This document shows, piece after piece, positions 15,563 to 32,932 of a stretch of 64,000 nucleotides of DNA (the first letter of the stretch is position 1; each line of letters begins with the position of its first letter). The position numbers were made by a program, and so were the translations under genes. Location: the NCBI RefSeq assembly GCF_000473265.1, contig NZ_KI421511.1, positions 5,624,360-5,688,359 of the forward strand, written 5' to 3'. This DNA is from Amycolatopsis thermoflava N1165. Lineage in GTDB: Bacteria; Actinomycetota; Actinomycetes; Mycobacteriales; Pseudonocardiaceae. A model generated the notes under the pieces. That model made no database searches and was not told the origin of the DNA. It saw only the letters and a list, made by a program, of their open reading frames with translations.

Positions 15563-16360
15563 CTATTCGTCCGTTCGGCGCAAAATCCAGGTCCGGCCGA
15601 GCTGGATTCCCACGAGCGCGATGAGCAGCGCGGCGAGGATCGCCGGGCTCTCCCACGGCCGCGGGTCGTCCGCGGGCGGCGCCGCGGCCGTCGTTCCCGC
15701 GCGGGATCGTCCCAGCGCCACCGTGTCGAACTGCGCCTGTGGGACGGTGCTCTGCACGTCGTAGTGCAACCCGGGCGCGGGGGCCGCGGCGGGCGGGCCG
15801 GCCGGGCCGTCGCCCTGGTACGGCGACGGCCCGGGCGGCGCCCCTCCCCCGGCCGGGCCGCCCGCGGGCAGCGAGAACTCCGGCGGGGCGAGCGTGGGCG
15901 GTGGGGGCGGTGATGGCGGTGGCGGCGCAGGCGGCGGGTCGACGCGCGGCGCTTCGGCCGGCACCGCGGTGATGCGGCAGGTTCCGGCCAGCAGGCCGTG
16001 CACCGGGCCGACGAGCGCGTCGAGCACCGGGCCGACCACCGAGATGCCGGTGAGCCGCGCGAGCACGGCGTCGGCGATGACATCCCCGGCGATCCCGGCC
16101 GGGCCGGCCGCGGGCAGCACGATCGGCGGGGTCGCGCGCCAGGCCGTCTCGAACGCGGGCACCAGGACGTTCAACGGGTCCAGCGGAGTCAGCACGGACA
16201 CCACCGGGTCGAGCACCGCGAGCGGGCTCAGCGCGAGCTCGTCGCCTTCGGTGACGGTGGCGACGCAGCTGTCCAGAACCCGCGCCTCGGCCCGCGCGGC
16301 GGGTGCGGCCAGCAGACCGAACGCCAGCGCGCCGGCCACGATCGCGGCACGGGCCCTCAC
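15563..16360 (-). CDS. Secreted Pro-rich protein with C-terminal membrane anchor (RTW paralog 1)
   Basis: A 265-residue protein of no known family. It has a signal peptide (about residues 1-25, ending AARAEA) and a small exported domain with two cysteines (Cys32, Cys128) that could form a disulfide. A Pro-rich linker covers about 136-230, and a hydrophobic helix (about 238-256) is followed by RTWILRR. The layout is that of an envelope protein projecting outward from the membrane. It has a paralog at 26812-27513 with the same two-Cys domain and the same RTW tail. The GTG start overlaps the MmpS-like stop (GTGA), so the two are coupled. Confidence 0.75.
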   Translation of the reverse strand: MRARAAIVAGALAFGLLAAPAARAEARVLDSCVATVTEGDELALSPLAVLDPVVSVLTPLDPLNVLVPAFETAWRATPPIVLPAAGPAGIAGDVIADAVLARLTGISVVGPVLDALVGPVHGLLAGTCRITAVPAEAPRVDPPPAPPPPSPPPPPTLAPPEFSLPAGGPAGGGAPPGPSPYQGDGPAGPPAAAPAPGLHYDVQSTVPQAQFDTVALGRSRAGTTAAAPPADDPRPWESPAILAALLIALVGIQLGRTWILRRTDE

Positions 16361-16785
16361 GGCCGGATCACCGAGGAACAGGAGACGGAGGTCCAGCCGT
16401 CCGGGGCGTCCGCGGTGTGCACGACGACGCCGTCCACAGAAACGGAGCAGCCGACCGGGCTGGCCGCCGTCACCTGGGCCACGCCGAGCGCGGGGCCGAC
16501 TTCGAGGTCCAGCTCCAGCCGCCACGGCAGGGGCACGTCGCGCAGCGTCTCGGTGCGGTTGACGCCGTCGGTGACGTACCGGATCTCCGGCGCGGAACCG
16601 GAACCGGTGACCTCGTAGACGACCCGGTGCGCGCTGCGCGGCAGCTCGAAGGACGTGCGGCTGAGCGGCTGACCGGTGCTCAGCGCCTGCAACGCGGTGG
16701 CCGCGCCAACGGGGACGACGGCGGCGCCGATCAGCCACGGCAGCCACCACGTCCGCCGGGCGATCCGCGTGGCCGTGTCCCTCAT
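16357..16785 (-). CDS. MmpS-like membrane-anchored protein
   Basis: A 142-residue protein with one N-terminal membrane helix (about 13-35) and an exported beta-rich domain. The pattern HRVVYEVTGSGSAPEIRYVT, then LPWRLELDL, then CSVSVDGVVVHT matches the MmpS/transport-accessory fold. In mycobacteria MmpS proteins partner MmpL exporters, but no MmpL gene is nearby. Here it is translationally coupled to a secreted Pro-rich protein instead. Two palindromic GGAAGCATTTCC-like sites lie about 110-160 bases upstream of its start. Confidence 0.7.
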   Translation of the reverse strand: MRDTATRIARRTWWLPWLIGAAVVPVGAATALQALSTGQPLSRTSFELPRSAHRVVYEVTGSGSAPEIRYVTDGVNRTETLRDVPLPWRLELDLEVGPALGVAQVTAASPVGCSVSVDGVVVHTADAPDGWTSVSCSSVIRP

Positions 16786-16895
16786 CGTGCTCGCTTTCTT
16801 GGACGCTTCTCAGGTTCGATCCGGACGGATGTGGAAACCTGGGGAGCGTCATCCTGGCACGCGCGTCGGCAGGCTGACCAGCCTCGCCGATCGGC

Positions 16896-16912
16896 CCGGG
16901 AAGCATTTCCGG
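16896..16912. promoter_or_regulatory. Palindromic site 1 (CCGGGAAGCATTTCCGG)
   Basis: An imperfect 17-base palindrome with arms CCGG-AA and TT-CCGG. It starts exactly 33 bases before site 2, about three helical turns, as expected for cooperative binding on one DNA face. An operator role is inferred. Confidence 0.55.
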
Positions 16913-16928
16913 AAATACGCGTTCACGT

Positions 16929-17156: not shown

Positions 17157-17276
17157 CACCTCTTGTGATCGGCACTTAACGATGAGGCCATCCGGCCGAC
17201 ACACCCGGCGTCGTAATGTCCGTTGTGCCCGTGATCCTTCCGCCATCCCGGGCATCGAATTGCAGAAAGGGAGACG

Positions 17277-17348
17277 ATGCGCGCACCGCATTTGCCGCGC
17301 ACGTGGTGCCCGTGGCCACCCGCAGGGGCACACCATGACGACACGTGA
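17277..17348 (+). CDS. Possible 23-residue leader peptide overlapping the HTH start
   Basis: An ATG with a strong upstream AAAGGGAG ribosome site opens a 23-codon frame beginning MRAPHLPRTWCPW. It stops 14 bases inside the HTH gene in another frame. Its first codons are nearly identical to the start of the downstream YcnI gene (18 identical bases, TGCGCGCACCGCATTTGC). It may be a leader for translational coupling, or the remnant of a ycnI start copied with the module. No protein evidence; speculative. Confidence 0.3.
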   Translation: MRAPHLPRTWCPWPPAGAHHDDT

Positions 17349-18165
17349 CGCCCGCAGCCTGTCCCCCGACGCGCTGGAGGCCCTGCGCCGCCGTGCGGTG
17401 GCCGCCGTCGAGGCCGGGGTGTCCCGGTCGGAGGTGGCGCGCCTGTTCGGCGTGTCCCGCAAGACCGTCGGCGCCTGGGTGCTCGCCTACCGGCGCGAGG
17501 GCGAGGACGCCTTCCGCCCCAAGACCCGCGGCCGCCGCCCCGGTGAGCAGCTCGCGCTCTCGCCGGCGCAACAGGCGTGGACCATCAAGACGATCATCAG
17601 CGGGACGCCCGACCAGTACGGTCTCCGGCACCGGCTGTGGAGCCGCCCCGCCGTGGTGGAACTCGTCAACCGCGAGTTCCGGATCCTGCTGAGCCCGGCG
17701 ACCGTCGGGCACTACCTGGTGCGGTGGGGCCTGATCGACGAGCCGTACCTGCAGGAGATGATGCGCAGCCGCGTCACCGCGACGGTGCCCAGGCCGCGCG
17801 GCGTCCCGGCGACCGCCGAGGAGTGGATCCCGGAGGCGGAGGTGCTGTGGGTGGCGTGGACGCGGCCGCACGCGCCCGCCGACCGCCGCGCGGTGTCGCG
17901 GCAGAACCTGATGTCCGGGTTCCGCAACTACTTCGGCGACGTCAACGTGCTGATCGCGATGTCCAACCGGGGGGTGGTGCACTTCCGGGCCGGGCTTGGC
18001 CCGTTCGACACCCCGCACGCGGAGGACTTCCTGCACCGGCTGATGCGCCAGCTCGGGCGGCCGCTGAACGTCGTGGTGTGCCGGTGGCCGCTGCAGCACT
18101 ACGAGATGCTGCAGGCCTGGCCGCGGCGGCACTCCGGGCGCATCTCCGTGCGCTTCAGCCTCTGA
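17335..18165 (+). CDS. HTH protein derived from an IS630-type transposase, catalytic residues lost (copy 1)
   Basis: A 276-residue protein with an N-terminal HTH (about 16-55, VSRSEVARLFGVSRKTVGAW) and a second winged-helix part (about 75-135) of the IS630 transposase type. A C-terminal remnant of the DDE domain spans about 165-260. Where IS630 enzymes have Asp in VDE and LVLD, this protein reads VLWVAW and NVVVCRW, so both catalytic acids appear missing. There are no flanking inverted repeats. It is therefore probably a DNA-binding regulator rather than a transposase. A paralog at 27856-28536 is coupled to a copper operon. The 3' end overlaps the convergent MFS gene by 11 bases. Confidence 0.75.
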   Translation: MTTRDARSLSPDALEALRRRAVAAVEAGVSRSEVARLFGVSRKTVGAWVLAYRREGEDAFRPKTRGRRPGEQLALSPAQQAWTIKTIISGTPDQYGLRHRLWSRPAVVELVNREFRILLSPATVGHYLVRWGLIDEPYLQEMMRSRVTATVPRPRGVPATAEEWIPEAEVLWVAWTRPHAPADRRAVSRQNLMSGFRNYFGDVNVLIAMSNRGVVHFRAGLGPFDTPHAEDFLHRLMRQLGRPLNVVVCRWPLQHYEMLQAWPRRHSGRISVRFSL

Positions 18166-19273
18166 CCGGCTCGTCCACTGTGGACAGCAGGAGCAGGCCG
18201 AGCGCGGGCAGCGCGATCAGCGGCGCGAGCGCGGTCCGCAGCGAGGTGGCGTCCGCCAGCGCGCCGAGGACCGGGCTCGCGAGCCCGCCGATGCTGACCG
18301 TCAGCCCGAGCGTGATGCCGCTCGCGGTGCCCACCCGGCTCGGCAGGTAGTCCTGGCCGAGCGTGACGTGCAGCGAGAACGGCACGTACAGGCCGGCGGA
18401 CGTGCCCGCGACGAACAGGTAGAGCAGCGGGCCGGGCACGAACACCACCCCGGCCACGGACAGCGTGGTGAGCGCGTAGGACCACCGCACGACGGGGATC
18501 CGGCCGAACCGGGCGGCCAGCTGCCCGCCCGCCACCGTGCCCACCGCGCCGCCGACGTAGAGCACGAACAACGCGACTATGCCCGCGAGGCTCCCGCCGC
18601 CGGTGCGCTGCTGCGCGTACAGCGAGACGAACGTGCTCAGTCCGATGAAGACGATTGAGCGGCAGACGATCGCGCCGGACAGCTTCGCGAAGGAGGCCCA
18701 GTCGTTCCGGCCGGCGCCCTCCCGCGTGGGCGCGGCGGTGCCGGAGATCCGGCGGAGCGCCATCGCGCACAGCAGCGCGCCCACGGCGGCGGGCAGCGCC
18801 AGCAACGGCGAGAACGCGAGCCCGCCGGTCGCGACGACGGCCGCGACGAGCAGTGGCGCGGTCGCGAAACCGACGTTGCCGCCGAGCGAGAACCAGCCCA
18901 TCGCGGTGTGGCTGCCACGGCTCGCGAGCCGGGCCACGCGGGCGGCTTCGGGGTGGTAGGCGGCGACGCCGATCCCGGAGACCGCGACGGCCGCCACGGT
19001 CAGCGCGTACGAGCCGACGCCGGCGAACGCGACGCCGAGCCCGCTGGTGAGCGCGCTGACCGGGAGCAGCCACGGCATGGACCACCGATCGGCGAGTGCG
19101 CCGAACAGCGGTTGCACCACCGAGGACAACAGGGACGCGGCCAGCACGACGCCGGACACGGCGGCGTAGGTGTAGGCCCGCTCGGCGACGAAGAACGGCA
19201 CGAGCGCGGCCACCGCGCCCTGGTAGACGTCGACGCACGCGTGTCCGACCGCGAGCAGGGGGATCGTTCGCAC
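18155..19273 (-). CDS. MFS efflux transporter, fosmidomycin-resistance (Fsr) like
   Basis: A 372-residue 12-helix major facilitator protein. It begins IPLLAVGHACVDVYQGAVAALVPFF, and the MFS loop 2-3 signature is GALADRWSMPWLLP. The early GHACVD and overall layout resemble Fsr-type drug exporters. It should export a small toxic compound by proton antiport. The gene is divergent from an AraC-family regulator with only 51 bases between, so that regulator most likely controls it. Substrate unknown. Confidence 0.85.
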   Translation of the reverse strand: MRTIPLLAVGHACVDVYQGAVAALVPFFVAERAYTYAAVSGVVLAASLLSSVVQPLFGALADRWSMPWLLPVSALTSGLGVAFAGVGSYALTVAAVAVSGIGVAAYHPEAARVARLASRGSHTAMGWFSLGGNVGFATAPLLVAAVVATGGLAFSPLLALPAAVGALLCAMALRRISGTAAPTREGAGRNDWASFAKLSGAIVCRSIVFIGLSTFVSLYAQQRTGGGSLAGIVALFVLYVGGAVGTVAGGQLAARFGRIPVVRWSYALTTLSVAGVVFVPGPLLYLFVAGTSAGLYVPFSLHVTLGQDYLPSRVGTASGITLGLTVSIGGLASPVLGALADATSLRTALAPLIALPALGLLLLSTVDEPVRG

Positions 19274-19324
19274 CGGCCCATCGTCGCCGTGGCGGACGCT
19301 GGCACGCTTCCGTTAATCTGCCAG

Positions 19325-20077: not shown

Positions 20078-20166
20078 TTCTGTTTTCCAAGCGGCGGAGC
20101 CGCCTCACCACCCGAGCAACCGGCTCCGTTACCCGCACCGCCGCGCAAGCCGCGCCCGAGAATGTC

Positions 20167-20601: not shown

Positions 20602-20617
20602 CGGACCACCATAGCCG

Positions 20618-21994
20618 CTACGTGGCCCGCGGCACCGGCTTCTTCCGGCGCTGCAGCGCGGAAATCCCCGCGTCCACCGCCAGGAACACCAGCAGGCTCG
20701 CCCCGAACACCGGGAGCACCCAGGTGAGCGCGACGATCGTGAGGAACCCCAGCGCCGCCATCGGCAGCGACAGCTGCTTCCAGGCCGCCGTCGGCAGGGC
20801 CTTCCACTTCCCCCGGTACGGGCTGCGCACCCACCACATCCGGTAGCCGAGTCCGATGAGGACCAGCAGGCCGGTCACCAGCACCGTCAGCACGATCTGG
20901 TTGGCCAGCCCGAACAGCGTCCCGGTGTGGAACTCCGCCGCGACCGACGTCAGCTTCGCCAGGAACGAGTAGTCGTCCCAGCCGATGTGCTCGGTCACCT
21001 CGCCGGTGAACGGGTCGATGCTGATGTTGTCGCGCTGCAGGGGGATCCCGGCCGCGCGCTCCATCACGGTGTAGACCGCACCCGCCCGCGCCGGCGCCGT
21101 CACCAGCAGCTCCCCGTGCAGCCCCTGGGACTTGGCGATCTCCAGCACCCGGTCGACGCCGATCGGTTCGACGCCCTCCGGCACGACCACCGGCGCGGCC
21201 GCCAGCGTGGGCGCGCGCAGGCGCATCGGGTCGTTCTCCTGGCTGTCGCGGCCGCCGGTGAACTGCGAGATGAGCAGTCCGCTGACCGCGATCACCACCA
21301 GGCCCGCCGACAGCCACAACCCGAGCGGACCGTGCAGCCCGCGCAGCCGCAGCCAGCCGCCCTTCGCCTTGCGGGGCGGGACGAACAGGTCACGGGTGCG
21401 CCTGCGCCGCCGCGACTGCGCGAGCCACAGCACCAGTCCACCGAGGACGATCACCGGCAGCCAGCTCGCGCACAGTTCCGCGTACCACCGCCCCGGCTCC
21501 CCGAGGTGCAGGTTGCTGTGCAGGTCCCGCAACCACGTGTTGGCCGGCATCCGGTTGCCTGCCGTCGTCAGCTCCCCGTTGATGTAACCGGTGTACGGGT
21601 CGACGAACACGGTGCGCGCCTGCCCGTCGTCGCCGCCGGGCAGCCCGGGCACGGACAGCACCACCCGCGTGGTGCGGTCCGGCGCCGGTGACGTGATCAC
21701 CTGCCGCAGCGCGGCTTCCGGGTGCGCGGTCATCGCCGCGCGGACCTGTTCCGACACCGGTTTCGGCGTCGCGCCGACCTCGTTGACGTACAGCTGCGAG
21801 TGGTACAGGTTGTCGTGGATCTGCGGGCTGAACACGTACACCAGCCCGGTCAGGCTCAGCACCACGAGGAACGGCGAGACGACGATGCCCGCCATGAAGT
21901 GGATCCGGCGGGCGATCACCCGCAGGCCGGTCATCCCGCGCGCGGGCTGCTTCTTCCGCTTGCCCGGCGGGCGGGTCTCGGTCGTCGTGCTCAT
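20618..21994 (-). CDS. PepSY-domain membrane protein (PepSY_TM family)
   Basis: A 458-residue inner-membrane protein. An N-terminal helix (HFMAGIVVSPFLVVLSLTGL) is followed by an exported PepSY-like domain, the DLHSNLHLGEPGRWY segment, further helices, a second exported PepSY segment (ISIDPFTGEVTEHIGWDDYS) and C-terminal helices. Relatives are associated with iron or copper uptake and transmembrane electron transfer. The His residues in LHSNLHLG and HTGTLFG could bind heme or metal. It is the last gene of operon I, and its ATG overlaps the stop of the CopC/CopD-like gene (ATGA). Confidence 0.85.
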   Translation of the reverse strand: MSTTTETRPPGKRKKQPARGMTGLRVIARRIHFMAGIVVSPFLVVLSLTGLVYVFSPQIHDNLYHSQLYVNEVGATPKPVSEQVRAAMTAHPEAALRQVITSPAPDRTTRVVLSVPGLPGGDDGQARTVFVDPYTGYINGELTTAGNRMPANTWLRDLHSNLHLGEPGRWYAELCASWLPVIVLGGLVLWLAQSRRRRRTRDLFVPPRKAKGGWLRLRGLHGPLGLWLSAGLVVIAVSGLLISQFTGGRDSQENDPMRLRAPTLAAAPVVVPEGVEPIGVDRVLEIAKSQGLHGELLVTAPARAGAVYTVMERAAGIPLQRDNISIDPFTGEVTEHIGWDDYSFLAKLTSVAAEFHTGTLFGLANQIVLTVLVTGLLVLIGLGYRMWWVRSPYRGKWKALPTAAWKQLSLPMAALGFLTIVALTWVLPVFGASLLVFLAVDAGISALQRRKKPVPRAT

Positions 21995-23529
21995 CGGACC
22001 TCGATGACGCCGTAGATGACTTCCTGCTGCCCGTCCGGCGTCCGCGCGGTGAGGGCCAGCTCCCACGGCCCGGCCGACGGCACGGCCACCGAACCGACCA
22101 GGTGCCCCGTCTCGGCGGCCGCGAACGGCACCGGGACCGGCGCGCCGGACGGCGGGGCGAGTTCGGCGGTGATCGCCGTGCCCGGCTTCGCGTCGAGGAC
22201 CGTGACGTGGACCTGGTTGTCCCCCACCCGCGCCGGGACGACCGCGAGGTCGAGCGCGCCGGTGGACAACGCGAGCCGCACCAGCGGGGCCTGCGGCGCG
22301 GGCGCGGGACCGGCCGGCACCACGGACAACGCCGTGCTCACGCCGACGAGCGTGACCGCGAGCCCGGTCTGCACCAGCGACAGCCGTCCGGCCAGTGCGA
22401 GCAGGCCCAGCAGCAGCACGAGCACCGCGAACCCGGCCCACAGCCAGCCCGCGAGGCTCCCGAGGTGCTGCCACACCTGCGCGCCCGCGGTCACCGCGAG
22501 CAGCCCGGCGCACACCACGACCAGCGCCTTCGGCCGCCCCGCCGCACCGGGGAACCGGCGCAGCACCACCAGCACCCCGGCGAGCACGGCCAGCGCGGTG
22601 AGGTGCACGACGCCGGCCACGACCGAGCCGGGCCCGGTGAAGCTCCACGTCGCCACGACCGCGGCGGTGCAGGCGAGCACCGTGCCGCCACGCAGCCGCC
22701 GCTCTCGCGCCGACTCCGCCGGCGCCATGGTCAGGAACTGCGCGATCCCGATGCCGGCCACCGCGACGACGAGCAGCCGCGCGAGGTAGACGTGACCGGT
22801 CGCGGACTCCAGCACCCCGGAGACGAGGCGGCCGTCGAGGATGCCGGTCAGCGGCAGCTTCGCCGCGTACGGCCCGAAAGTCAGCAGCGACAGGACGGTC
22901 CCGCCGAGCACTCCACCCCACGCCCAGGCCGCCATGCGACGGACCACAGTGGACTCGGCACCCGCGGGCCACAGCACGGCAACGAACAACACCAACCCCG
23001 CGAGCAAGGCGAGCGCGGCGAACGCGAGGAACTGCGCGACTACATACGCGACCGTCACCACCACACCGGGCCGGGCGTCCAGCGCGGGCGGGGCCTGCAC
23101 GGGGCTGCGTGAGGCGAGGTCGAAGGTGAACGTCCCGGTGGCCGCGTCCTGCCCGGTCACCGGCACGCTCCAGGCGATCGTGTACGTGCCCGCGTACTTC
23201 TGCTTCGGCACCGGCACGGAGAGCGTGTTGTCCCGGCCGTCGGCGTGCACCGGACGACCCGGGTCGACCGGACGCTTGTACGGGTCGGTCATCCGGATCG
23301 TCGAGAGGCCGGCGGGCACCGGCCGGTCGAAGGTCAGGACGATGTCGTCGGGCCGGGTGACCTGGCCGTTGCCGGGCGCCGACGACACCAGCACGGGCGG
23401 CTCCGGCGACACCGGCGAGGACAACGTCAGCAACGAGGTCCAGCAGGCGGCGATGAGCAGCAGGAACGGGAGCAGCCGTGCCGCGCGGCGGTTCCGGGTG
23501 ACGGCAGGCGGTCTCTCCAGCGTCGTCAT
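21991..23529 (-). CDS. CopC-CopD-like fusion lacking the CopC copper ligands
   Basis: A 512-residue protein with a signal/anchor helix (about 18-38), a CopC-like beta domain (about 42-140), a block of membrane helices of CopD type (about 155-430), and a C-terminal exported beta domain. In CopC the mature protein starts with a copper-binding His and has a second His in a D-x-H motif. Here the equivalents read PPVLVSSAP and QDAATGTF, so both His are absent (about Pro44/45 and Ala130). The paralog at 28536-30308 keeps them. It is coupled by ATGA overlaps to the YcnI-like gene before and the PepSY gene after. Role likely envelope metal or redox related. Confidence 0.8.
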   Translation of the reverse strand: MTTLERPPAVTRNRRAARLLPFLLLIAACWTSLLTLSSPVSPEPPVLVSSAPGNGQVTRPDDIVLTFDRPVPAGLSTIRMTDPYKRPVDPGRPVHADGRDNTLSVPVPKQKYAGTYTIAWSVPVTGQDAATGTFTFDLASRSPVQAPPALDARPGVVVTVAYVVAQFLAFAALALLAGLVLFVAVLWPAGAESTVVRRMAAWAWGGVLGGTVLSLLTFGPYAAKLPLTGILDGRLVSGVLESATGHVYLARLLVVAVAGIGIAQFLTMAPAESARERRLRGGTVLACTAAVVATWSFTGPGSVVAGVVHLTALAVLAGVLVVLRRFPGAAGRPKALVVVCAGLLAVTAGAQVWQHLGSLAGWLWAGFAVLVLLLGLLALAGRLSLVQTGLAVTLVGVSTALSVVPAGPAPAPQAPLVRLALSTGALDLAVVPARVGDNQVHVTVLDAKPGTAITAELAPPSGAPVPVPFAAAETGHLVGSVAVPSAGPWELALTARTPDGQQEVIYGVIEVR

Positions 23530-24287
23530 CCGTTGCTCACCTTCTCCGGCTCGGGCGTCGGCTCGGGATCCGGCGCGCGGCGGTGCAGCAGGTGGGTTCG
23601 GAGCCCGACCAGGGCCACCACCAGGAACGCGAGCCCGAGCACGCCCCACAGAAAGGCGAACGGGGTGATGCCGCCGCTGTTCGCCTGCTCTTCGGCCTGC
23701 TGCTCGGCGGCCGCGACGGCCTGGTCGGCCCGGTTCGCTTCGATCACCGCGGGCGGCGGGGCGCCCTGGGCGGCGTTGGGGCTGACGACGATCACCGGCG
23801 CGTTTCCGGCCGCGGCGGAGAACCGGTCGGTGGCGCCGCTGGTGTAGCCCTGGACGGTGTCGAGCACCAGGTCGCCCTGCTCGGGCAGCGGGCCGAGGGT
23901 GACGAGGAACTGCTCGAACTGGCCGGGGCCGACCTCGCCGCCCTCCAGCACGATCGAGCCGACGACCTGGCTGATCAGGCGGTCGCCGGACTGCTGCGGC
24001 GGGTCGAGCGGGCGCGGGTTGATCTTGGCGGTCCAGCCGCGGGCGGGCTTGACCTCGGCGAAGGCGATCGGGGGACTCTGCGGGAACACGATTTCGAGCC
24101 GGTTGCTCTGGGTGTCGGTGCGCTGGTTGGCGAGGCGGAAGGCGAAGGTCTCGGTGCTGCCGCCCTTGACGGAGCCGGGCACGATCGACACCTGCGCGGC
24201 GGCCGGGGCGGCCAGGCCGAGCAGCGCGCACGAGGCGAGGAGCAGCGCGGCCGCGGCACGCGCGAAGGACCTGGGGGATGCGGGCAT
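23526..24287 (-). CDS. YcnI-like (DUF1775) protein lacking the copper brace residues
   Basis: A 253-residue protein with signal peptide (about 1-31), DUF1775 domain, Ala/Gln-rich linker and C-terminal membrane helix (about 208-230). In YcnI the N-terminal His of the mature protein and a conserved Trp form the copper site. This copy has Gln32 at the start (AQVSIVPGSV) and Phe156 (TSGATDRFS) at the Trp position. The paralog at 30319-30996 has His and Trp. It probably no longer binds copper in the YcnI way. A stable hairpin lies just before its start. Confidence 0.82.
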   Translation of the reverse strand: MPASPRSFARAAAALLLASCALLGLAAPAAAQVSIVPGSVKGGSTETFAFRLANQRTDTQSNRLEIVFPQSPPIAFAEVKPARGWTAKINPRPLDPPQQSGDRLISQVVGSIVLEGGEVGPGQFEQFLVTLGPLPEQGDLVLDTVQGYTSGATDRFSAAAGNAPVIVVSPNAAQGAPPPAVIEANRADQAVAAAEQQAEEQANSGGITPFAFLWGVLGLAFLVVALVGLRTHLLHRRAPDPEPTPEPEKVSNG

Positions 24288-24393: not shown

Positions 24394-26748
24394 TCAGCCG
24401 ATCGGGTTCAGCTGCTCGGGGGTCAGCTTCTCCCGCCAGCCTGCGGGAACCTGCTGCGACCAGCCGTTGTAGACCAGCGGGATGGGCAGCACGCCCTGAC
24501 CACCCATGCCGGGCTGTCCGGTCAGCGTGCCGTCCGACTTGGTGTCCGCGGTCGGGGCCAGCACCAGCTGACCGACGACGGCGGCGTCGGCGATGTTCCC
24601 GTCCATGTTCGGGTCGATGTCGATGACCTGAGCGGCGTTCGAGAACTTGTTCGACACGTAGGCGTAGTACCCGCCACCCTTCTTGGCACCGAAGTTGATG
24701 CCGTGGCAGCCCGCGTTGCAGGGCAGCTCCTTGACCACCTTGTCGGTCTTCGGGTCGATGACCGAGACGGTGGCGCTGAAGGTGTTGGCGGCCAGCATGC
24801 CCTTGTCGTCCGGGCTCACCGGGAGCTGGATGGTGAGACCACCCCACGGCTTGGTGCCGTTCCGCCCGGTGACCGGGTTGTAGTTGTCCCACAGGTCGAT
24901 GCTCGCGTTGTGGACCTTCTTGCCGTCCTTGACGCAGGCGTCTTCGGCGAGGGAGACGCACGAGATGCTCCCGCCGAGGAAGTCGGCCATGTAGAACTTC
25001 GACTGGTCGGACATCATGCTGGAGGCGATCGGCAGTTCGCCGGTCGGCTCCTTCCGCCACGTGCCCGTCTCGTTGTCCACAACGGACGCGTCGTACGGGT
25101 TCACGTTCGGCGTGACCGTGGTCTTGCCGTCCGAGCTGAGCCAGAACGCGTGCGGGTGCTGCGGGAAGTCACCCGGTGGACCCACGGGGATGCGGCGTTC
25201 GATCTTCTCCGCACCCGGCGAGAGCTCGACGACGTCCGTGCCACCGTTGATGGCGACCTGGACCTGGTCGGTGTCGGTGCGGGTCATGACGTGTGACGGG
25301 TCCGGACCGACTTCGATCGTGCGGACGTGCTGACCCGTGGACCGGTCGAAGACGGAGAGCTCGTCGTCGAACCACTCGGTCTGGTACAGGTACTTGTAGT
25401 TCTTGTCCGTCCACATGTTGTGCGGGTTGTTCATGTTGATGCTCGAACCGGAGATCTTGCGGTCGACCGTCCAGTTCTCCACGTTCACCTTCGTGGCGGC
25501 GCCGACGTAGTCCTTGCCCGCGTACTCCTCCATCTGGGTGTCGATCCAGACCTCACCCACGCCAGGGGTCTGCGGCGGGGTCAGCTTGTCCAGGGTCTTG
25601 GGGTACCCGAACTTCTTGTCGTAGTAGGCGTCCAGGATCGGCACGAGCACCGGGTTGCCCTGGGCGTCGTACTGCAGGATCGGCGCGGGCGGGAACACCG
25701 GGTTCCACTGCGACGACTCGGTGGTGCTGTAGGTCTGCCAGTTGTCCGGCACCGTCGCGGTGAAGAAGATGCGCACCAGCTGCTGGATGACGTCCGCGTT
25801 GGACGGAACCGTCAGGTCACGCGAGTTGACCTTCAGCTTCTTGCCGAAGTCCAGGCCGATCGTGAGCGGGTCGTCGACCACGGTCGCACCCAGCATGTAC
25901 GGGTGGATCGTGCAGGTCCACGCGTACAGACCGGGCTCGGTCAGCTGCGTGGAGTCCGAGCCGGCGAACGCGCCCATCTGCTCGAAGAAGGGCGCCCCCT
26001 CCGGCCAGATCAGCGACGTGATGTCGTGCAGCGACTGGTTCTTCGGGCTGCCGATGGTGAAGTTGGCCGTGATGGCCGGGCCCTTCACCGCGAACGTCGC
26101 CAGGTCGTCCAGTGCCTTCTGCAGGTCGAGGCCGACCGGGAGGCTGTCCAGGCTGATCGGCTGGTCCGCGGGCAGGCTCGCGACCTCGGCCTGGAACTGG
26201 CTGAGCAGGCCCTCGGCCTTCGCCGCCGACGTCGCCGCGCGCGGCTCGGTGGCGGCGATGTTCTTCACCGCGGACAGCGTGCTGTCCAGGTTCAGCAGGT
26301 CGGTCAGGCCGCCGAGCTGCCCGAGGGACGGCATCGCCTTCGCCGGGTCGCTGGAGGCCAGGCCGGTCAGCGAATCGACCAGGTCCAGGTTCAGCAGCCC
26401 GTTGGACTGGGCCGTGTCGAGCTGGCCCAGCGGCAGGTTCGGCAGGCCGAGCGTGCCGTCCGGCAGGCTCGGGATGATGTTGCCGTCCAGCGCGGAGGTG
26501 CCGAGGCGCGGCAGCTCCGCCACAGCCAGCGACTTGCCGCCGAACAGCTCCAGGCCCGAGTCGAACCAGTTGCCGTTGCTGTCGTTCAACGTGAAGGTGA
26601 TCGGCACGGGGCCGACACCCACTGGCAGCGCGGCGGCCGGCACCGCGGCCACCGTCGTCGCGCCCAGCGCGACTGCCGCCAACGGGATCACCGTTTTGAG
26701 GCGGCGGGACCGCCTCTTCCCGGCTCCCGGGGGAGCGTTTTCGGGCAT
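24394..26748 (-). CDS. Exported amicyanin-like cupredoxin joined to a propeller-like domain
   Basis: A 784-residue secreted protein. The N-terminus has a Tat-like SRRLK motif and a hydrophobic stretch ending near AAALP (about 41). A helical spacer follows, then a cupredoxin segment (about 226-298) with His241 and YAWTCTIHPYM, giving Cys279, His282 and Met285 in the C-x2-H-x2-M spacing of amicyanin. The C-terminal 450 residues show beta-propeller-like repeats with conserved His near NPHNMW (443), DPSHVM (486), QHPHAF (531, 533) and CNAGCHGINFG (682). It should be an electron-transfer protein or copper oxidoreductase of the envelope. NosZ has the opposite domain order. It is the second gene of operon I. 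Confidence 0.75.
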   Translation of the reverse strand: MPENAPPGAGKRRSRRLKTVIPLAAVALGATTVAAVPAAALPVGVGPVPITFTLNDSNGNWFDSGLELFGGKSLAVAELPRLGTSALDGNIIPSLPDGTLGLPNLPLGQLDTAQSNGLLNLDLVDSLTGLASSDPAKAMPSLGQLGGLTDLLNLDSTLSAVKNIAATEPRAATSAAKAEGLLSQFQAEVASLPADQPISLDSLPVGLDLQKALDDLATFAVKGPAITANFTIGSPKNQSLHDITSLIWPEGAPFFEQMGAFAGSDSTQLTEPGLYAWTCTIHPYMLGATVVDDPLTIGLDFGKKLKVNSRDLTVPSNADVIQQLVRIFFTATVPDNWQTYSTTESSQWNPVFPPAPILQYDAQGNPVLVPILDAYYDKKFGYPKTLDKLTPPQTPGVGEVWIDTQMEEYAGKDYVGAATKVNVENWTVDRKISGSSINMNNPHNMWTDKNYKYLYQTEWFDDELSVFDRSTGQHVRTIEVGPDPSHVMTRTDTDQVQVAINGGTDVVELSPGAEKIERRIPVGPPGDFPQHPHAFWLSSDGKTTVTPNVNPYDASVVDNETGTWRKEPTGELPIASSMMSDQSKFYMADFLGGSISCVSLAEDACVKDGKKVHNASIDLWDNYNPVTGRNGTKPWGGLTIQLPVSPDDKGMLAANTFSATVSVIDPKTDKVVKELPCNAGCHGINFGAKKGGGYYAYVSNKFSNAAQVIDIDPNMDGNIADAAVVGQLVLAPTADTKSDGTLTGQPGMGGQGVLPIPLVYNGWSQQVPAGWREKLTPEQLNPIG

Positions 26749-26769: not shown

Positions 26770-26791
26770 CCGTCCGAACCCGTTCGGACGG
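26770..26791. promoter_or_regulatory. Inverted repeat in the leader of the cupredoxin gene
   Basis: Perfect 10-base arms CCGTCCGAAC (26770-26779) and GTTCGGACGG (26782-26791) separated by CC. It lies in the 63-base gap between the RTW paralog 2 stop and the cupredoxin start, ahead of an AGAAAGGAAG ribosome site. It could be an operator or an mRNA hairpin. The 2-base loop favours a DNA operator. Confidence 0.5.
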
Positions 26792-26811: not shown

Positions 26812-27513
26812 TCAGGTATTTGCCGGGCCGGTTGCCACGTTGAATACTTCCCCGCGCATCCGCCGAACCCAGGTGCGTACCAATTGCGCGCTCACCAGCG
26901 TGAGGGCGAGAGTCGCCAGCAGAACCGGCTGGGACAATTCGTCCCGGGTCACCGGCAACGCTTCCGCCGTGCCCGTCGGCCGCTGCGTGCTCACCACATC
27001 GGTTTTCCCGGCGGCCACGGCCTGCGGTGGCGCGCCCGGTGCGCCGAAGTTGAGCGCGGGCCCGAACGGCAGGGGGTCGGCGAACCCGAAGCGCGCGGTG
27101 GCACCGCCACCGCTGCTCTCCTGGGCCGTCAGGCGACCGCCGGACGGCGTCCCGGCACTGTTCGCGCTCGGCGAGGAGGACGGCGGCGTGGTGGACGGCG
27201 AGGCGGGTGGCTGCTGCTCCCCCGGGACCGGCGCTTCCGGCTGGACCGGCGGCACGAGGAGGCCGCACGCCGAATCCACCACCGTGGTCACGGTCTCGGT
27301 GACCGGCTGCAGGACCGGCCCGAGGAGCGGGATGGACCCGAGCCCGTCGGTGATGTCGTCGCCGGGGATCAGAACGGGGGCGTCCGGCGCCAGCGCCGTG
27401 CAGCCGGGGGCGGCGACCGGTTCCTCGGCACCCGCCTCGGCGGCGCCCACGGTCATGCCACCGAGGCAGCCCACCGTCAGCGCGCCTGCCGCGAGATGAC
27501 GTCGGAATCGCAT
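26812..27513 (-). CDS. Secreted Ser/Pro-rich protein with C-terminal membrane anchor (RTW paralog 2)
   Basis: A 233-residue protein with signal peptide (about 1-29), a small domain with Cys38 and Cys83, and a Ser/Thr/Pro-rich linker (about 90-190). A hydrophobic helix (about 196-212) is followed by RTWVRRM. It shares its layout with the protein at 15563-16360, including P-[IV]-[LV]-[IL]-P near the first half, GPVL motifs, and a QL-x-RTW anchor end. No family is recognised. It is the first gene of operon I, so it may be a surface partner of the exported cupredoxin. The ATG follows a GAGAGAAGG ribosome site. Confidence 0.75.
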   Translation of the reverse strand: MRFRRHLAAGALTVGCLGGMTVGAAEAGAEEPVAAPGCTALAPDAPVLIPGDDITDGLGSIPLLGPVLQPVTETVTTVVDSACGLLVPPVQPEAPVPGEQQPPASPSTTPPSSSPSANSAGTPSGGRLTAQESSGGGATARFGFADPLPFGPALNFGAPGAPPQAVAAGKTDVVSTQRPTGTAEALPVTRDELSQPVLLATLALTLVSAQLVRTWVRRMRGEVFNVATGPANT

Positions 27514-27855: not shown

Positions 27856-28536
27856 TCAGCCGATGGACAGCCCGGCGATCACGTTCCGGTCCGCCGAGCA
27901 CCACCTCTCGAGCAGGTGTTGTTGCGCCGCAGGCCATTCCGTGACCACCGCGGTGACTTCACGGGCGAGCTGCATCCGCAGCCGGTTGCGGAAATCCACC
28001 AGTTGCGCCACGTCGAACGGCAGCCGCCCGGCGCGGAAGAACACCAGCCCGCGGTGCGTCACCGCGACCAGCGCGTGCAGCCCACGCGGCGCGGTCCAGC
28101 GCACCACCAGGCCGTCGCCCACGTACTCCCGCGGTCCGGTCAGCCCCCAGCGGGTCAGGTAGCGGTCCGCCGTCGCCGGGCTGATCCGGATGCCGAACTC
28201 GCGCTCGACCAGTTCGGTCACCGCACGGCGCGTCCACAGCAGGTGCGGCAGGCCGGCCGCGTCGGGCAGACCGGCGGCGACCACCGCGACGATCCGGTCC
28301 TGCTGCTCGCCGGACAGGGCAAGGCACTCGCCCACCCGGCGGCCCCGGCGCTGCGGCGGGAACGCCTGCTCGCCGGTCGCCTGGTATGCCCGGACCCAGA
28401 CGCCCACCGTCTTGCGGCTGACCCCGAGCATCGTCGCGACCCGGCCCTGCGACAGGCCGGCCGTCACGGCGGCCACCGCGCGGCGGCGCAGCCGTTCCAG
28501 TTCCGGTGCCGACAACCTCCGCGCGTCCGTGGTCAT
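27856..28536 (-). CDS. HTH protein derived from an IS630-type transposase, catalytic residues lost (copy 2)
   Basis: A 226-residue paralog of the protein at 17335-18165. The shared start is LRRRAVAAV-x-AG, then LGVSRKTVG-x-WV, and the second helical part holds EREFGIRISPATADRYLTRWGL. The DDE remnant is even shorter: the second catalytic Asp position reads TAVVTEWPAAQQH and the first Asp region is deleted. It is probably a regulator. Its ATG shares a base with the CopC-CopD stop (TGATG), so it is made together with the copper proteins. This makes it a good candidate for metal- or redox-dependent control of operons I and II. Confidence 0.78.
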   Translation of the reverse strand: MTTDARRLSAPELERLRRRAVAAVTAGLSQGRVATMLGVSRKTVGVWVRAYQATGEQAFPPQRRGRRVGECLALSGEQQDRIVAVVAAGLPDAAGLPHLLWTRRAVTELVEREFGIRISPATADRYLTRWGLTGPREYVGDGLVVRWTAPRGLHALVAVTHRGLVFFRAGRLPFDVAQLVDFRNRLRMQLAREVTAVVTEWPAAQQHLLERWCSADRNVIAGLSIG

Positions 28537-30308
28537 CAGCGCGCCCCCACCGGGATCCGCACGACAGCCTGGTCCACTTCGGACGTTCGCACGGTGACGG
28601 CCAGCTCCCACATCCCGGGCATGGTGACCGGCACGTTCACCGCGATGGCGTGGTCGCCGCCGATGAACTGCAACGCGACCGGCAGCGGGCCGACCGACTT
28701 CGACGGCAGGCTGAGCGACGCGGTCAGCTCGGCCACCTGCTTCGGCCGGCGCTGCGCGTCCAGCACCGCGAGGTGGATCTCGTTGCGCCCCACCGCTCCC
28801 GGGGTCACCAGCGCCGCCAGCTGCCCGGCGCCCGCCGGTCCACCGCCGGCGTCGAAGGGCAGGACGACGTTCACCGGTCCGGTCCGCGCCGGGATCTCCG
28901 CCTCCGCCCGCTCCCGGGCCAGCTCGGCGGTGGCCGGTTCGGCGCTCACCAGGAACGCCGTCACCCCGAGCACCACGGCGGCCAGCACCGCCTCGGTCGC
29001 GATCATCCGCCGGAACCGGCTGACCTCGCGCTCCTCCGGACCGCGGTAGGCCTTGCGTTTCTTGGACACCACCGGCGCGTGGGTGTAGTGCCTGCGGACC
29101 CACTGCCGGGCCAGCGCACCCAGGAGCACGAGCACCACCACGAGCCCGACCTTCGCCAGCAGCACCGCGCCGTAGCTGGTGGCGAACAGCGCCGTCAGGC
29201 TGCCCACCTCGCGCCACGCCTGGTAGGTGCCGGTCACCACCAGCACGGCGACGCAGACCAGCGCGGTGCGGGAGAACCGCGGGATCGCGATCCGCATGCC
29301 GAACACGTCACCCGAGCGCAGCAGCACACCGAGCAGGACGGGCAGGCCGCCGAGCCACACCGCCATCGCCACCAGGTGGATCGCGTCGACCGGCAGCGAC
29401 AGCGCGACCTGAGCGCCGGTGACGCTGTGGTTGGTCAGGCTCCAGGTGATCGCGAGTGCGCCACCGGCGGTCAGCACCAGCGCGGCCCGCCGCCGGTGGT
29501 CGCGGGCCTGGTACTCGGCGAACGACGTCCGCCGGAACACGTGGACGAGCACCACGGCGATCAGTCCCAGCAACGCGGCGCGCACGACCAGCAGCAGCCC
29601 CATGCGGCTGCCCAGTGTCGCGCCCAGGTCCTGCGGATCGAGCAGATCGGCGGCCGTCCCGGCGGCCGAGTACGGCCCGTAGGACACGAACGCCAGCACC
29701 GTCGCGCCCAGCAGCGTGCCCCACCCGGTCCACAGCATCCGCCGCACCGCGGGCATCGCCTCGCCGCCCGGCCAGCACGCGGCGACGAAGAACGCGGTGC
29801 CCAGCAACAGGGCCACCCCGGCGTAGCCGAGCCACCGCGCCACCGCGTACAGCGCCGACACCACGCCGTCCGCGGTCTGCTCGCCCGCGTTCGCCGCCAC
29901 GCCGCCGGTGACCGAGCCGATGCTGAACGCGAAGGCGCCCGGCACCGGGTGGGCGTCGGCGGACACCACCCGGTAGCTGACCGTGTAGGTGCCCTCGGCC
30001 AGGCCGGACGGCAGCGTCACGGCCACGACGTCCGCCTTCCCCGGCGGGTGCGCCGGCGCGGACACCCCGCCCACGGCCCCGCCACCCGGGCCGATCACGG
30101 TCACCTCGGCCGCCTCGACCGGCTCGTTGAACTGCAACGTCACTTCCCGTGGCGCGGACTCCAGCACCTCGAAACCGCCCGGCGTGGTGCCGATCAGCAC
30201 CGCGTGCGCGGACGCCTGGCCCGCCCCGCCGAGCGCCGCGGCCACGAGCGCGCCGAGCACGACGACCAGGCGCGCCGCCCACCGGGGCGTGCTCCCGTCC
30301 CTGCTCAT
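28536..30308 (-). CDS. CopC-CopD fusion copper-resistance/import protein
   Basis: A 590-residue protein with signal peptide (about 1-34), a CopC domain beginning with His35 (AHAVLIGTTPGG) and ending with D-x-H in SADAHPVPGAF (Asp118, His120), then a CopD-type block of membrane helices, and a C-terminal exported beta domain (about 475-590). The His and Asp residues match known Cu(II)-binding CopC sites. It should bind copper outside the membrane and move it inward, or otherwise handle copper. The ATG (MSRDGSTP) lies 10 bases after the YcnI stop. The stop overlaps the HTH start. Confidence 0.88.
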   Translation of the reverse strand: MSRDGSTPRWAARLVVVLGALVAAALGGAGQASAHAVLIGTTPGGFEVLESAPREVTLQFNEPVEAAEVTVIGPGGGAVGGVSAPAHPPGKADVVAVTLPSGLAEGTYTVSYRVVSADAHPVPGAFAFSIGSVTGGVAANAGEQTADGVVSALYAVARWLGYAGVALLLGTAFFVAACWPGGEAMPAVRRMLWTGWGTLLGATVLAFVSYGPYSAAGTAADLLDPQDLGATLGSRMGLLLVVRAALLGLIAVVLVHVFRRTSFAEYQARDHRRRAALVLTAGGALAITWSLTNHSVTGAQVALSLPVDAIHLVAMAVWLGGLPVLLGVLLRSGDVFGMRIAIPRFSRTALVCVAVLVVTGTYQAWREVGSLTALFATSYGAVLLAKVGLVVVLVLLGALARQWVRRHYTHAPVVSKKRKAYRGPEEREVSRFRRMIATEAVLAAVVLGVTAFLVSAEPATAELARERAEAEIPARTGPVNVVLPFDAGGGPAGAGQLAALVTPGAVGRNEIHLAVLDAQRRPKQVAELTASLSLPSKSVGPLPVALQFIGGDHAIAVNVPVTMPGMWELAVTVRTSEVDQAVVRIPVGAR

Positions 30309-30318
30309 GCCGCGGCCC

Positions 30319-30996
30319 CTACAGCCGGGCCTTTTCACGCTCACCGACCGCGGGGACCGGCGCGGGCTTGCGGCGCACGGCGGCCCAGCCGAGCGCGACC
30401 AGTCCGGCGGCCAGGCCCGCCCCGCCGAGCACCCGCGCGGTGGTGTCCGAAGTGGACTCCGGCGCGGGCGGTGGCGCCACGGACAGCGCCGGCGCCGGGT
30501 GCTCCGGCTCCGCCTGCCCAGCCTGCGGCACGTCGATCCACCGCACGACCTGCCCGTCGGAGTAGGTCTGCAGGGTCTTCATGACCAGCGTTCCCGCGGG
30601 CGGCGAGGCGATGCTGACCGGGAAGTCCTGGTAGGTGCCGACGGGGATCTGCCCGCCCTCCCAGACGATCGCGGTGACCGCTTCGCTGATGGTGCCGTGC
30701 TCGGTCGCGACCGGTTGCGGTAGTTCGGTCGTGGTGACGGACACGCTCCAGCCCGGCACGGTCTGCGGGGTGACCGAGGCCAGGGGCTTGTCCTCGGGGA
30801 AGCGGACCTCGAGACGGACGGTGGTGGCGTCGTCGCGTTCGTTGGGCACGCGGAAGGCGACGGTGGCCCGCTCGCCGGGTTCGGCGGTGTCCGGCGAGAC
30901 CGAGACGTGCGCCCACGCGGCCGGTGACAGCAGGAACATCGCCGCGATGCCGACCGCGGTGGCAGTGACAGTGCGACGCAAATGCGGTGCGCGCAA
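30319..30996 (-). CDS. YcnI-like (DUF1775) copper-binding protein
   Basis: A 225-residue membrane-anchored protein with signal peptide (1-29), then mature His30 (AHVSVSPDTAEPG) and Trp153 (GQVVRWIDVP). These residues form the monohistidine copper brace described for YcnI. The C-terminal helix is at about 187-207. It should act as an outer-face copper chaperone feeding the CopC-CopD protein encoded 10 bases downstream. The start appears to be a TTG preceded by AAAGGA; no better ATG or GTG keeps the signal peptide intact. Confidence 0.88.
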   Translation of the reverse strand: MRAPHLRRTVTATAVGIAAMFLLSPAAWAHVSVSPDTAEPGERATVAFRVPNERDDATTVRLEVRFPEDKPLASVTPQTVPGWSVSVTTTELPQPVATEHGTISEAVTAIVWEGGQIPVGTYQDFPVSIASPPAGTLVMKTLQTYSDGQVVRWIDVPQAGQAEPEHPAPALSVAPPPAPESTSDTTARVLGGAGLAAGLVALGWAAVRRKPAPVPAVGEREKARL

Positions 30997-31394
30997 TGCG
31001 GATCCTTTCGGTTGTCACCGCGACGGCGAAAGTCGCGGCGTGGCCCAATACTGCCGCCGCTCGTGTCGCGCATGTGGCACCACTGTTAACGGCACGTCAC
31101 AAACCGCTCCAACCGGATGTCGAATGCTACCCGAAAGGCAAATTCCGGCCACTTCACTTGCCGGGTTTCCGCAGGTCACAGCCGGTTTCGGTCGGAACCT
31201 CTTTTTCCGTACCCGATTGCCGGGAGTCGGCTGAGGCAATATCATCCCAACTCGCCGGCCACTCCTCCGTCGAAGAAATCTTCCGCACAGCAGGCCTCGC
31301 GCGAACCGGGCTCGGAACTAACATTTCCGAAATACCCGGCTGTTAGCGTTCTGCGGGCAACACGCCGCCGGAGAGGAGAGGTGGGAGCAGCGTC
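30997..31394. other. Divergent control region between operon II and the ferredoxin gene
   Basis: About 400 bases with no credible gene and lower GC than average. It includes CATTTCCGAAATACCCGG at 31322-31339, close to the CATTTCCGGAAATAC of site 1. The copy lies about 70 bases before the ferredoxin start. A GGAGAGGAGGTGGGAG ribosome site precedes the ferredoxin ATG. Confidence 0.5.
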
Positions 31395-31715
31395 ATGCCC
31401 AAGATCACTTATGTTCAGCAGGACGGCTCGGCCGAGTCGTTCGACGTGCCGGCAGGCATGTCGGTCATGGAGGCCGCGATCGAAGCGGGGGTCGGCGGGA
31501 TCGTCGCCGAGTGCGGCGGGAACGCCATCTGCGCGACCTGCCACGTGTACGTCGACCCCGGTCAGATCGAGAAGCTGCCGCTGCCGCAGGCGGACGAGGA
31601 CGCGATGCTCGACAACACCGCGTGCCCCCGCGCCGAGAACAGCAGGCTGTCCTGCCAGATCGAGGTCACCGAGGAACTCGACAGCCTGACCGTGACCGTG
31701 CCGGAGGAACAGTGA
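31395..31715 (+). CDS. [2Fe-2S] ferredoxin, adrenodoxin type
   Basis: A 106-residue electron carrier. The cluster ligands are in AECGGNAICATCHV (C-x5-C-x2-C) and the fourth Cys in RLSCQIEV, as in rhodocoxin, terpredoxin and adrenodoxin. It normally shuttles electrons from an NAD(P)H reductase to a cytochrome P450. The reductase follows with a GTGA overlap, but no P450 is present in the window. It is divergent from copper operon II and carries a shared upstream site, so it could feed electrons to the envelope redox system. That is only inferred. Confidence 0.93.
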   Translation: MPKITYVQQDGSAESFDVPAGMSVMEAAIEAGVGGIVAECGGNAICATCHVYVDPGQIEKLPLPQADEDAMLDNTACPRAENSRLSCQIEVTEELDSLTVTVPEEQ

Positions 31716-32932
31716 CCGACGTCGTGATCGTGGGCGCGGGGCAGGCGGGTTTCCAGGTCGCCGCGTCGCTCCGCGAGAAGGGGCACCCGGGCCGGGTGGT
31801 GCTCGTCGGGGACGAGCCGGGCGTGCCCTACCAGCGCCCGCCGTTGTCGAAGGCCTACCTCTCGGGCGCCCTGCCGGGCGAGCGTCTCGCGCTGCGACCG
31901 CAGGCGTTCTACGACAAGCACGGCATCGAGCTGGTGTGCGGGCGGGCGGTCGGGATCGACCGGGACCGCCGCCGCGTCGCACTCGCCGACGAGCGTGAAC
32001 TGGAGTACGGGCACCTCGTGCTCGCCACCGGGACCCGCAACCGCGAACTGCCGGTGCCGGGCGCGAAACTCGACGGCGTGCTGGGCCTGCGCACCCGCGC
32101 GGACGCCGACGCGCTGCGCGAGCGGATCGGCGGGGCGCGGAACGTGGTGGTGATCGGGGGCGGGTTCATCGGCCTCGAGTTCGCCGCGTCGGTGGCCGAG
32201 CTCGGGCTGTCGGTCACCGTGCTGGAGGCGTCGGACCGGCTGATGCGCCGGGCCGTGTCGCCCGCGGTGTCGGCGCACTACCGGGAGCTGCACGAGCGGC
32301 GGGGCACGCGGGTGCTGTTCGGTGCGTCGGTGGTCGCCCTGCACGGCGGCCACGAGGTGACCGGGGTCGAGCTGGCGGACGGCTCGGTGCTGCCCGCCGA
32401 CCTGGTGGTCGTCGGCATCGGCGTGGTACCCAACACGGAGCTGGCCGCCGACGCCGGACTGGCGGTGGACAACGGCATCGTGGTCGACGAGCAGATGTCC
32501 ACATCGGACCCGCGCGTCTCCGCGGTCGGCGACTGCGCGGTCTACCCGAGCCGGCACGCGGGCGGCCCGCTGCGGCTGGAGTCGGTGCAGAACGCGGTGG
32601 ACCACGCCCGCTGCCTGGCCGCGCGGCTGACCGGCGCCGCGGAGCCGTACGCGTCGGTGCCGTGGTTCTGGAGCAACCAGTTCGACGCGCGACTGCAGAT
32701 CGCGGGACTCGGCACGGACCACGACGAGGCGGTCGTGCACGGCGACCCGGAAGCGGGCTCGTTCTCGGTGTTCTGCTTCCGCGCGGGGCGGCTCGTGTGC
32801 GTCGAGTCGGTGAACCGGACACCCGACCACATGGCGGCGCGCAAGCTTTTCACCGCGGGCGGGTCGCTGGACCGCGAGGTGCTGACCACCCCGGGCTTCG
32901 ACTTCCGGCAGCACCTGGCCGCCATGGCCTGA
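31712..32932 (+). CDS. NAD(P)H-dependent ferredoxin reductase (FAD)
   Basis: A 406-residue two-dinucleotide-fold flavoprotein. It has FAD-binding DVVIVGAGQAGFQVAASLR at the start, YQRPPLSKAYLSG, LVLATGTRNR, the NAD-binding NVVVIGGGFIGLEFAAS, and the second FAD motif VSAVGDCAVYPS. The C-terminal part (from about residue 320) is of the ferredoxin-reductase type (PF14759-like). It reduces the ferredoxin encoded just upstream, with translational coupling through GTGA. Both are typical class I P450 partners, yet no P450 is nearby. Confidence 0.93.
   Translation: MTDVVIVGAGQAGFQVAASLREKGHPGRVVLVGDEPGVPYQRPPLSKAYLSGALPGERLALRPQAFYDKHGIELVCGRAVGIDRDRRRVALADERELEYGHLVLATGTRNRELPVPGAKLDGVLGLRTRADADALRERIGGARNVVVIGGGFIGLEFAASVAELGLSVTVLEASDRLMRRAVSPAVSAHYRELHERRGTRVLFGASVVALHGGHEVTGVELADGSVLPADLVVVGIGVVPNTELAADAGLAVDNGIVVDEQMSTSDPRVSAVGDCAVYPSRHAGGPLRLESVQNAVDHARCLAARLTGAAEPYASVPWFWSNQFDARLQIAGLGTDHDEAVVHGDPEAGSFSVFCFRAGRLVCVESVNRTPDHMAARKLFTAGGSLDREVLTTPGFDFRQHLAAMA

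Follow-up and report, generated by a model that had tools for sequence, protein, structure and literature searches.

What does an exported protein that joins a cupredoxin to a seven-bladed propeller do beside two sets of YcnI and CopC proteins? The question is raised by positions 15563-32932 of a 64-kb stretch of DNA from Amycolatopsis thermoflava N1165 (contig NZ_KI421511.1; this whole stretch is called the window), whose genome of 8.69 Mb has Amycolatopsis tucumanensis as its nearest named relative (propeller protein 97% identical). An original prediction, made from the letters of this DNA, had seen here a candidate new envelope copper/redox system built of duplicated modules. All the parts that it named are present, with domains assigned from Pfam and NCBIfam profiles; its observation is confirmed, and its interpretation is partly supported. 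In the clade to which the window belongs, a PepSY_TM membrane protein stands at the locus in place of a multicopper oxidase (MCO), and the adjacent YcnI1 and CopC1 proteins lack the copper-binding His. To judge from the sequences, the locus may encode an extracellular metal redox protein, with a type-1 cupredoxin and a probable site of four His, whose MCO partner has been swapped for a heme conduit, a reading to which we give an even chance.

The locus was compared across 50 rows, namely the window, 36 regions from genomes of the same family and 13 from outside the family, of which 49 are distinct (L052 and L164 are the same record and are counted once). These 49 actinobacterial loci include close relatives; L203 and L205 are short contig ends where absences mean little, and L221 (= L056), which carries broken genes, is unread in one column of His and one of YcnI. 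Two partner types can be distinguished. The MCO type (24 loci) combines the propeller gene with an adjoining gene for a two-domain MCO, usually together with ycnI2, copCD and an hth gene; the MCO is present in 24/24 and PepSY_TM in 0/24. In the PepSY type (25 loci, including the window) the propeller gene is usually accompanied by ycnI1 (22/25) and copC1 and then by PepSY_TM, which is present in 24/25, the locus without it being a 5.9-kb contig. No MCO is found in these 25 loci, although in other lineages two-domain or CopA-type MCOs lie next to the propeller or are fused to it. A tree of 37 propellers takes in 14 of the 25 PepSY-type rows, and these 14, with the window among them, form one clade with full support (100/100). 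On this basis the PepSY type looks like one switch that was later inherited rather than 25 events. The original prediction had staked itself in part on co-occurrence in other genomes, and the modules do co-occur and the set moves as a unit.

Both predicted YcnI/CopC sets are present, but they are not equivalent, and calling them two copper sets is functionally wrong. The copper ligands reported for BsYcnI of Bacillus subtilis are the His at its N-terminus and a Glu, a Trp lying close by, and this His is reported in 10,393 of 10,647 YcnI family members (PMC8424229); for its partner in copper uptake, YcnJ, the changes H24A and H295A, which affect a CopC and a CopD His, are reported to abolish function (PMC13344008). 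YcnI2 and CopCD keep the ligand set of this pair: His/Glu/Trp are present in 15/15 aligned YcnI2 sequences, the window's included, and the window's CopCD has H35, H120, H294 and H311, each kept in 32 of the 33 rows labelled CopCD (the 33rd, L196, is a mislabelled CopC1). In YcnI1 and CopC1 the His are missing. The YcnI1 His is present in 0/11 sequences of a first alignment and in 0/22 of a larger set, one of them unread. Among 21 CopC1 sequences the two CopC His are kept in one (a broken gene) and none, and the two CopD His in two and five; copC1 has no match to Pfam CopD. The CopC and CopD His positions are inferred to correspond to H24 and H295 of YcnJ, and CopC1, which is without the His needed in YcnJ, should not work as an importer.

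The cupredoxin site follows the same divide. Of the 31 loci that keep its ligands, 30 have an intact CopCD, and of the 18 that have lost them, one has it; the two are concordant (both kept or both lost) in 47/49 loci. All 24 MCO-type loci have intact ligands, with copCD in 23 of these. Seven PepSY-type loci have them too, all seven with an intact copCD, and the 18 losses fall in the rest of this type (a ycnI1 match is absent in three of the 18). The sole locus with lost ligands that yet has copCD is L040, where the gene is distant and on the opposite strand. Since the cupredoxin site and CopCD are kept or lost together, YcnI2/CopCD can be read as supplying copper to the cupredoxin, although this rests on about one loss event. 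The predicted role of the ycnI2/copCD operon in copper handling is likewise supported by its kept Cu(II) ligands and by this concordance, and YcnI1/CopC1 may survive as metal-free scaffold or assembly partners. The actinobacterial loci would then constitute a natural experiment, in which a copper partner was swapped for a heme partner and copper sites were lost alongside. Alternatively, the locus could be a copper-handling platform, and not encode an enzyme for some other substrate; its propeller would bind extracellular copper: the MCO form would oxidise Cu(I) to Cu(II) for YcnI/CopC and the PepSY form would reduce Cu(II) to Cu(I), leaving the Cu(II) sites of YcnI1/CopC1 dispensable. Such a platform accounts for the ligand loss that tracks the swap from MCO to PepSY_TM, the best NCBIfam match of the MCO is a copper-resistance MCO (174 bits, below the cut-off of 479), and known PepSY_TM proteins reduce metal complexes, a copper reductase role for one of them, CrpH, being a speculation of its authors (PMC13038864). 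Nevertheless, CopC1 mostly lacks the two CopD His as well and so should not import copper, and tblastn at E 1e-5 with the window's YcnI, CopC, CopCD and PepSY proteins gives a match in 0/54 propeller loci outside actinobacteria, some of which have short flanks. We consider this platform unlikely.

The protein at the centre of both types has 784 residues in the window. Its description as exported and amicyanin-like is borne out: the cupredoxin matches pseudoazurin and amicyanin profiles and carries in the window the type-1 ligand set H241 C279 H282 M285, and the predicted structure has a predicted local distance difference test (pLDDT) score of 89. A correction concerns the cupredoxin. Since its site is lost in 18/25 PepSY-type loci while the four propeller His (H443, H486, H533 and H682) persist, being invariant in 72/72 aligned sequences, the conserved core is the propeller and not the cupredoxin. 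The model confirms the seven-bladed fold and places three of these His within strands and one in a broken strand; they probably form a metal site at the mouth of the propeller. Another possibility is that the four His are structural or bind zinc or a small molecule as a non-redox ligand, in which case the propeller would act as a binding module and the cupredoxin would be a relic of evolution. Ligand loss in those 18 loci does suggest that the conserved function can do without type-1 copper, and many seven-bladed propellers of varied function match the model no worse than NosZ. Yet the ligands are intact in the window and in every MCO-type locus, and redox partners accompany the propeller gene in both actinobacterial types, which makes a purely structural or binding role very improbable.

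The seven-bladed fold is shared with NosZ, but it is common to many unrelated propellers, and since propellers of diverse function score as high or higher against the model, the fold alone says little. NosZ, including L-NosZ, reduces N2O and has CuZ and CuA sites and seven His; the window protein differs in having an N-terminal cupredoxin, type-1 ligands instead of CuA and four His instead of seven. Identity with NosZ or L-NosZ was rejected: the L-NosZ model NF052460 gives 40.3 bits against a cut-off of 700, and no other NosZ model is among the families listed for the propeller protein at E 0.001. Sequence search finds no solved relative of the propeller family beyond generic propellers and cupredoxins. 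No description of the family was found in titles and abstracts from the open full-text literature, a coverage that leaves subscription journals mostly outside, and the word 'propeller' is absent from PMC12448741 and PMC7785015. The set is conserved as a combination, one that to judge from open-literature titles and abstracts is undescribed; the claim of a new system holds for this combination, and not for the parts, which belong to known protein families apart from the Pro-rich proteins.

At E 1e-60 or better, a propeller relative is present in 36/390 genomes of the family and in 8/394 genomes sampled across the class. One Amycolatopsis genome (G693) has two PepSY-type loci, L191 with L213, of which one has intact cupredoxin ligands and the other does not. 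Further relatives, at 41 to 48% identity, are found in records titled Nitrosomonas, Nitrosovibrio, Nitrospira, Nitrososphaera, Nitrosocosmicus, Methylomirabilota, Methanoperedens, Chloroflexi and others. The broad set of relatives keeps 79 loci out of 159 confirmed stretches, and 54 of these loci lie outside actinobacteria. Among the 54, six propeller open reading frames (ORFs) exceed 900 residues, and four more loci yielded no single ORF. All six long ORFs, which are from nitrifiers, have Pfam multicopper oxidase domains ahead of the propeller (6/6), and these domains are absent from three propeller ORFs of about 600 residues scanned with them. The commonest neighbour cluster of the non-actinobacterial loci is present in 19/54. 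One could argue that the actinobacterial locus is an ordinary copper homeostasis locus, where the propeller is a surface protein that takes no part in redox chemistry, next to genes that came to lie there by chance or by hitch-hiking. YcnI, CopC, CopD and MCOs are indeed common copper proteins, and a Bacillus cluster is reported to have YcnI near CopCD and HTH genes (PMC8424229); but the gene order is repeated and the partner types are exclusive across the 49 loci, the four propeller His are invariant and MCO fusions exist, so that this explanation seems distinctly improbable. At its boldest, the interpretation would be that the propeller protein founds a new class of two-centre oxidoreductase of copper or another metal in nitrifiers, methane oxidizers and soil actinobacteria, with an exchangeable partner (a fused MCO, a neighbouring MCO or a heme-bearing PepSY_TM) and a YcnI/CopC pair left metal-free after the exchange; this is a tentative proposal, somewhat more doubtful than credible. 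The interest of the locus is that its propeller family, in which four His are invariant and redox partners stand close by, also occurs in ammonia and methane oxidizers. Nitrifier loci L100, L104, L106, L107, L111 and L112 have an MCO match beside or within the propeller ORF. Copper monooxygenases (PF02461) gave no match in the 36 propeller-bearing genomes of the family, in a scan whose positive control was also silent.

How could electrons reach or leave an extracellular protein of this kind? The predicted PepSY membrane protein is confirmed by PF03929 (205.6 and 207 bits, gathering score 28.8), and its His 32, 60, 91, 159, 221 and 356 are invariant in 12/12 aligned sequences, from which it is predicted to bind heme. 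A single-sequence search of the PDB with this protein gave no match, and the sole match of its profile there is FoxB (7abw, E 0.0034). It shares PF03929 and invariant His in or near predicted transmembrane segments with FoxB and with CrpH, which is reported to support heme-copper oxidases and to require its heme-binding motifs (PMC13038864); it differs from both in being tied to an extracellular propeller protein and not to a siderophore or TonB system. PepSY_TM might pass electrons through the membrane, either towards the propeller protein or away from it, and the ferredoxin and reductase encoded nearby may feed this conduit. The predicted ferredoxin/reductase pair is present as described and appears in 9/25 PepSY-type against 0/24 MCO-type loci, in three arrangements (Fisher p 0.0016, kinship ignored). 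With the own genome excluded, the locus reductase is the best match in 3/4 genomes tested, G748 being the exception, and the locus ferredoxin is the best or sole match in 4/4. The two genes are loose members of the set.

Two helix-turn-helix (HTH) proteins had been described as derived from dead transposases; this description stands, and they are linked to the gene set. HTH1 and HTH2 are 44% identical over 262 residues and match the NCBIfam IS630 transposase model at 73.0 and 69.7 bits, below its cut-off of 100. The structure model shows a paired-type HTH and an RNase-H-like fold, and it ends after the fifth strand. Against what we take to be the positions of the IS630 Asp/Asp/Glu motif, 0/54 aligned HTH rows show both residues of the catalytic Asp pair (read by eye, with two rows unread at the second stretch), and the ratio of nonsynonymous to synonymous substitution rates (dN/dS) indicates purifying selection; both proteins look IS630-derived and catalytically dead. 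Relatives are found in 12/12 propeller-bearing genomes among 200, at a cut-off (E 1e-30) set after the gap to true transposases was seen, and in 32/36 propeller-bearing genomes of the full family set. Unlike IS630 transposases and PAX paired domains, they have lost the catalytic residues, occupy only two loci in their own genome and are tied to one locus type. Dead-transposase proteins bound to one locus in this way make a clean candidate case of bacterial transposase domestication. On a separate contig, genome G693 holds an extra HTH copy that is interrupted by one in-frame stop.

HTH1 and HTH2 might regulate the operons through sites of the form GTGA-N7-TTMAC. The recurring palindromes of the original prediction hold in part. 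The window has two exact matches, 5' of hth1 and ycnI2 (expected 0.35; 6/100 shuffles reach two), but a search that tolerates one mismatch gives 9 where 8.7 are expected; as this count is at chance, only the exact form is informative. Of 20 PepSY-type hth1 starts, 12 have a slightly wider form (TTHAC) no more than 160 bp away, for a background of 0.4% per 160 bp (the window's own hth1 site starts 170 bp before the gene, just beyond this limit), and this form also precedes 3/7 ycnI2 starts of the closest type, all three from near kin. It is no general feature of the loci: among the other starts examined, the motif precedes 0/20 MCO-type hth genes, 0/13 hth2, 1/57 propeller and 1/22 ycnI1 genes, and none of PepSY, pro, copCD or MCO. 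The 22-bp palindrome CCGTCCGAACGGGTTCGGACGG occurs only in the window and L034 among 25 named loci compared. A short palindrome, GTGATTCAC, lies within about 80 bp 5' of the propeller gene in L036, L039, L041 and L057, which are PepSY-type loci with a lost cupredoxin site; its half-site is that of the hth1 motif, with a different spacing.

Several points weigh against a redox protein whose MCO was swapped for a heme conduit. The partner swap and the loss of the cupredoxin site each amount to about one event in the tree, so the counts are not independent. Ligand loss is not complete everywhere, the Glu being retained in 15/22 YcnI1 and the Trp in 5/22. All the functional steps are inferred, and a metal at the four His of the modelled propeller is a candidate only. 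Homology of PepSY_TM to FoxB is weak by sequence. The ferredoxin pair accompanies only those nine PepSY-type loci; each genome has 5 to 10 relatives of the reductase, and a paralog at another site of the own genome resembles it (53%) just as closely as do the copies at Pseudonocardia loci. Four propeller genomes, all of one genus, have no HTH, and two genomes (G063 and G100) have a close HTH with no propeller. Finally, the operator motif was picked by eye ahead of counting, and the sequences compared are related. In G063 (L146:7734-14610), an HTH1-like and an HTH2-like protein and PepSY_TM have a copper amine oxidase and an Rrf2 regulator as neighbours, with no propeller match in 18 kb; in G100 (L147:8377-9180), a lone HTH homolog lies beside a lipoprotein with no Pfam family, and the other window genes are unmatched in 17 kb.

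The order on the minus strand is ycnI2, copCD, hth2, pro2, propeller, ycnI1, copC1, PepSY_TM, glyoxalase, AraC, MFS, hth1 and pro1, where AraC and hth1 are opposite in strand to the rest; the ferredoxin and reductase genes diverge from ycnI2. The features are listed in Table 1.

Table 1 Features of the cupredoxin-propeller locus, in window coordinates
Feature	Position	Strand	Basis or remark
pro1, secreted Pro-rich C-terminally anchored protein	15563..16360	-	homologs near propeller in other loci
candidate operator GTGATCGGCACTTAAC, 5' of hth1	17165..17180	+	one of two exact GTGA-N7-TTMAC matches in the window
hth1, domesticated IS630-type protein, paired-type HTH and degenerate RNase-H-like fold	17335..18165	+	profiles, model, dN/dS
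MFS, AraC and glyoxalase genes	18155-20601		outside the conserved set
PepSY_TM protein, predicted heme-binding transmembrane conduit	20618..21994	-	PF03929; invariant His; weak FoxB 7abw profile match
copC1, CopC-like with transmembrane region, copper His lost	21991..23529	-	PF04234
ycnI1, DUF1775 protein, copper ligands lost (QQL where HEW is expected)	23526..24287	-	PF07987
exported cupredoxin and seven-bladed propeller protein	24394..26748	-	profiles, model, alignment
perfect 22-bp palindrome CCGTCCGAACGGGTTCGGACGG between pro2 and propeller gene	26770..26791	.	sequence
pro2, second Pro-rich anchored protein	26812..27513	-	matches shared with pro1
hth2, second domesticated IS630-type protein	27856..28536	-	profiles, alignment, dN/dS
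copCD, CopC-CopD fusion, copper His intact	28536..30308	-	PF04234 and PF05425
ycnI2, DUF1775 protein, His/Glu/Trp intact	30319..30996	-	PF07987, 163.5 bits
candidate operator GTGACGTGCCGTTAAC, 5' of ycnI2	31085..31100	-	exact GTGA-N7-TTMAC match
2Fe-2S ferredoxin, possible electron donor	31395..31715	+	loosely linked to PepSY type
ferredoxin-NAD(+) reductase	31712..32932	+	profile and linkage

The region had been treated as one set, and a conserved gene set is what is found, save for three unrelated inserted genes: MFS, AraC and glyoxalase were rejected as members, as they accompany the other genes in no locus but those of the window and its two nearest relatives, bar one glyoxalase match in L217. 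The two secreted Pro-rich anchored proteins do belong together as foreseen, pro1 and pro2 having no direct match to each other but being linked by single proteins in L036, L038, L050 and L057 that each match both; pro homologs lie near the propeller gene in 15/25 PepSY-type and 6/24 MCO-type loci. Next to the reductase gene, window positions 32987-34171 encode an L-2-hydroxyglutarate oxidase (NF008726, 527 bits, above the cut-off); close relatives and L035 likewise have it near the locus. Elsewhere in the window, two tandem ORF pairs (51757-56516) resemble a duplicated operon, and the ORFs at 53281-54306 and 55473-56516 share the start pattern LRAYL..LD.ETLA.LL.EQA.RDP.

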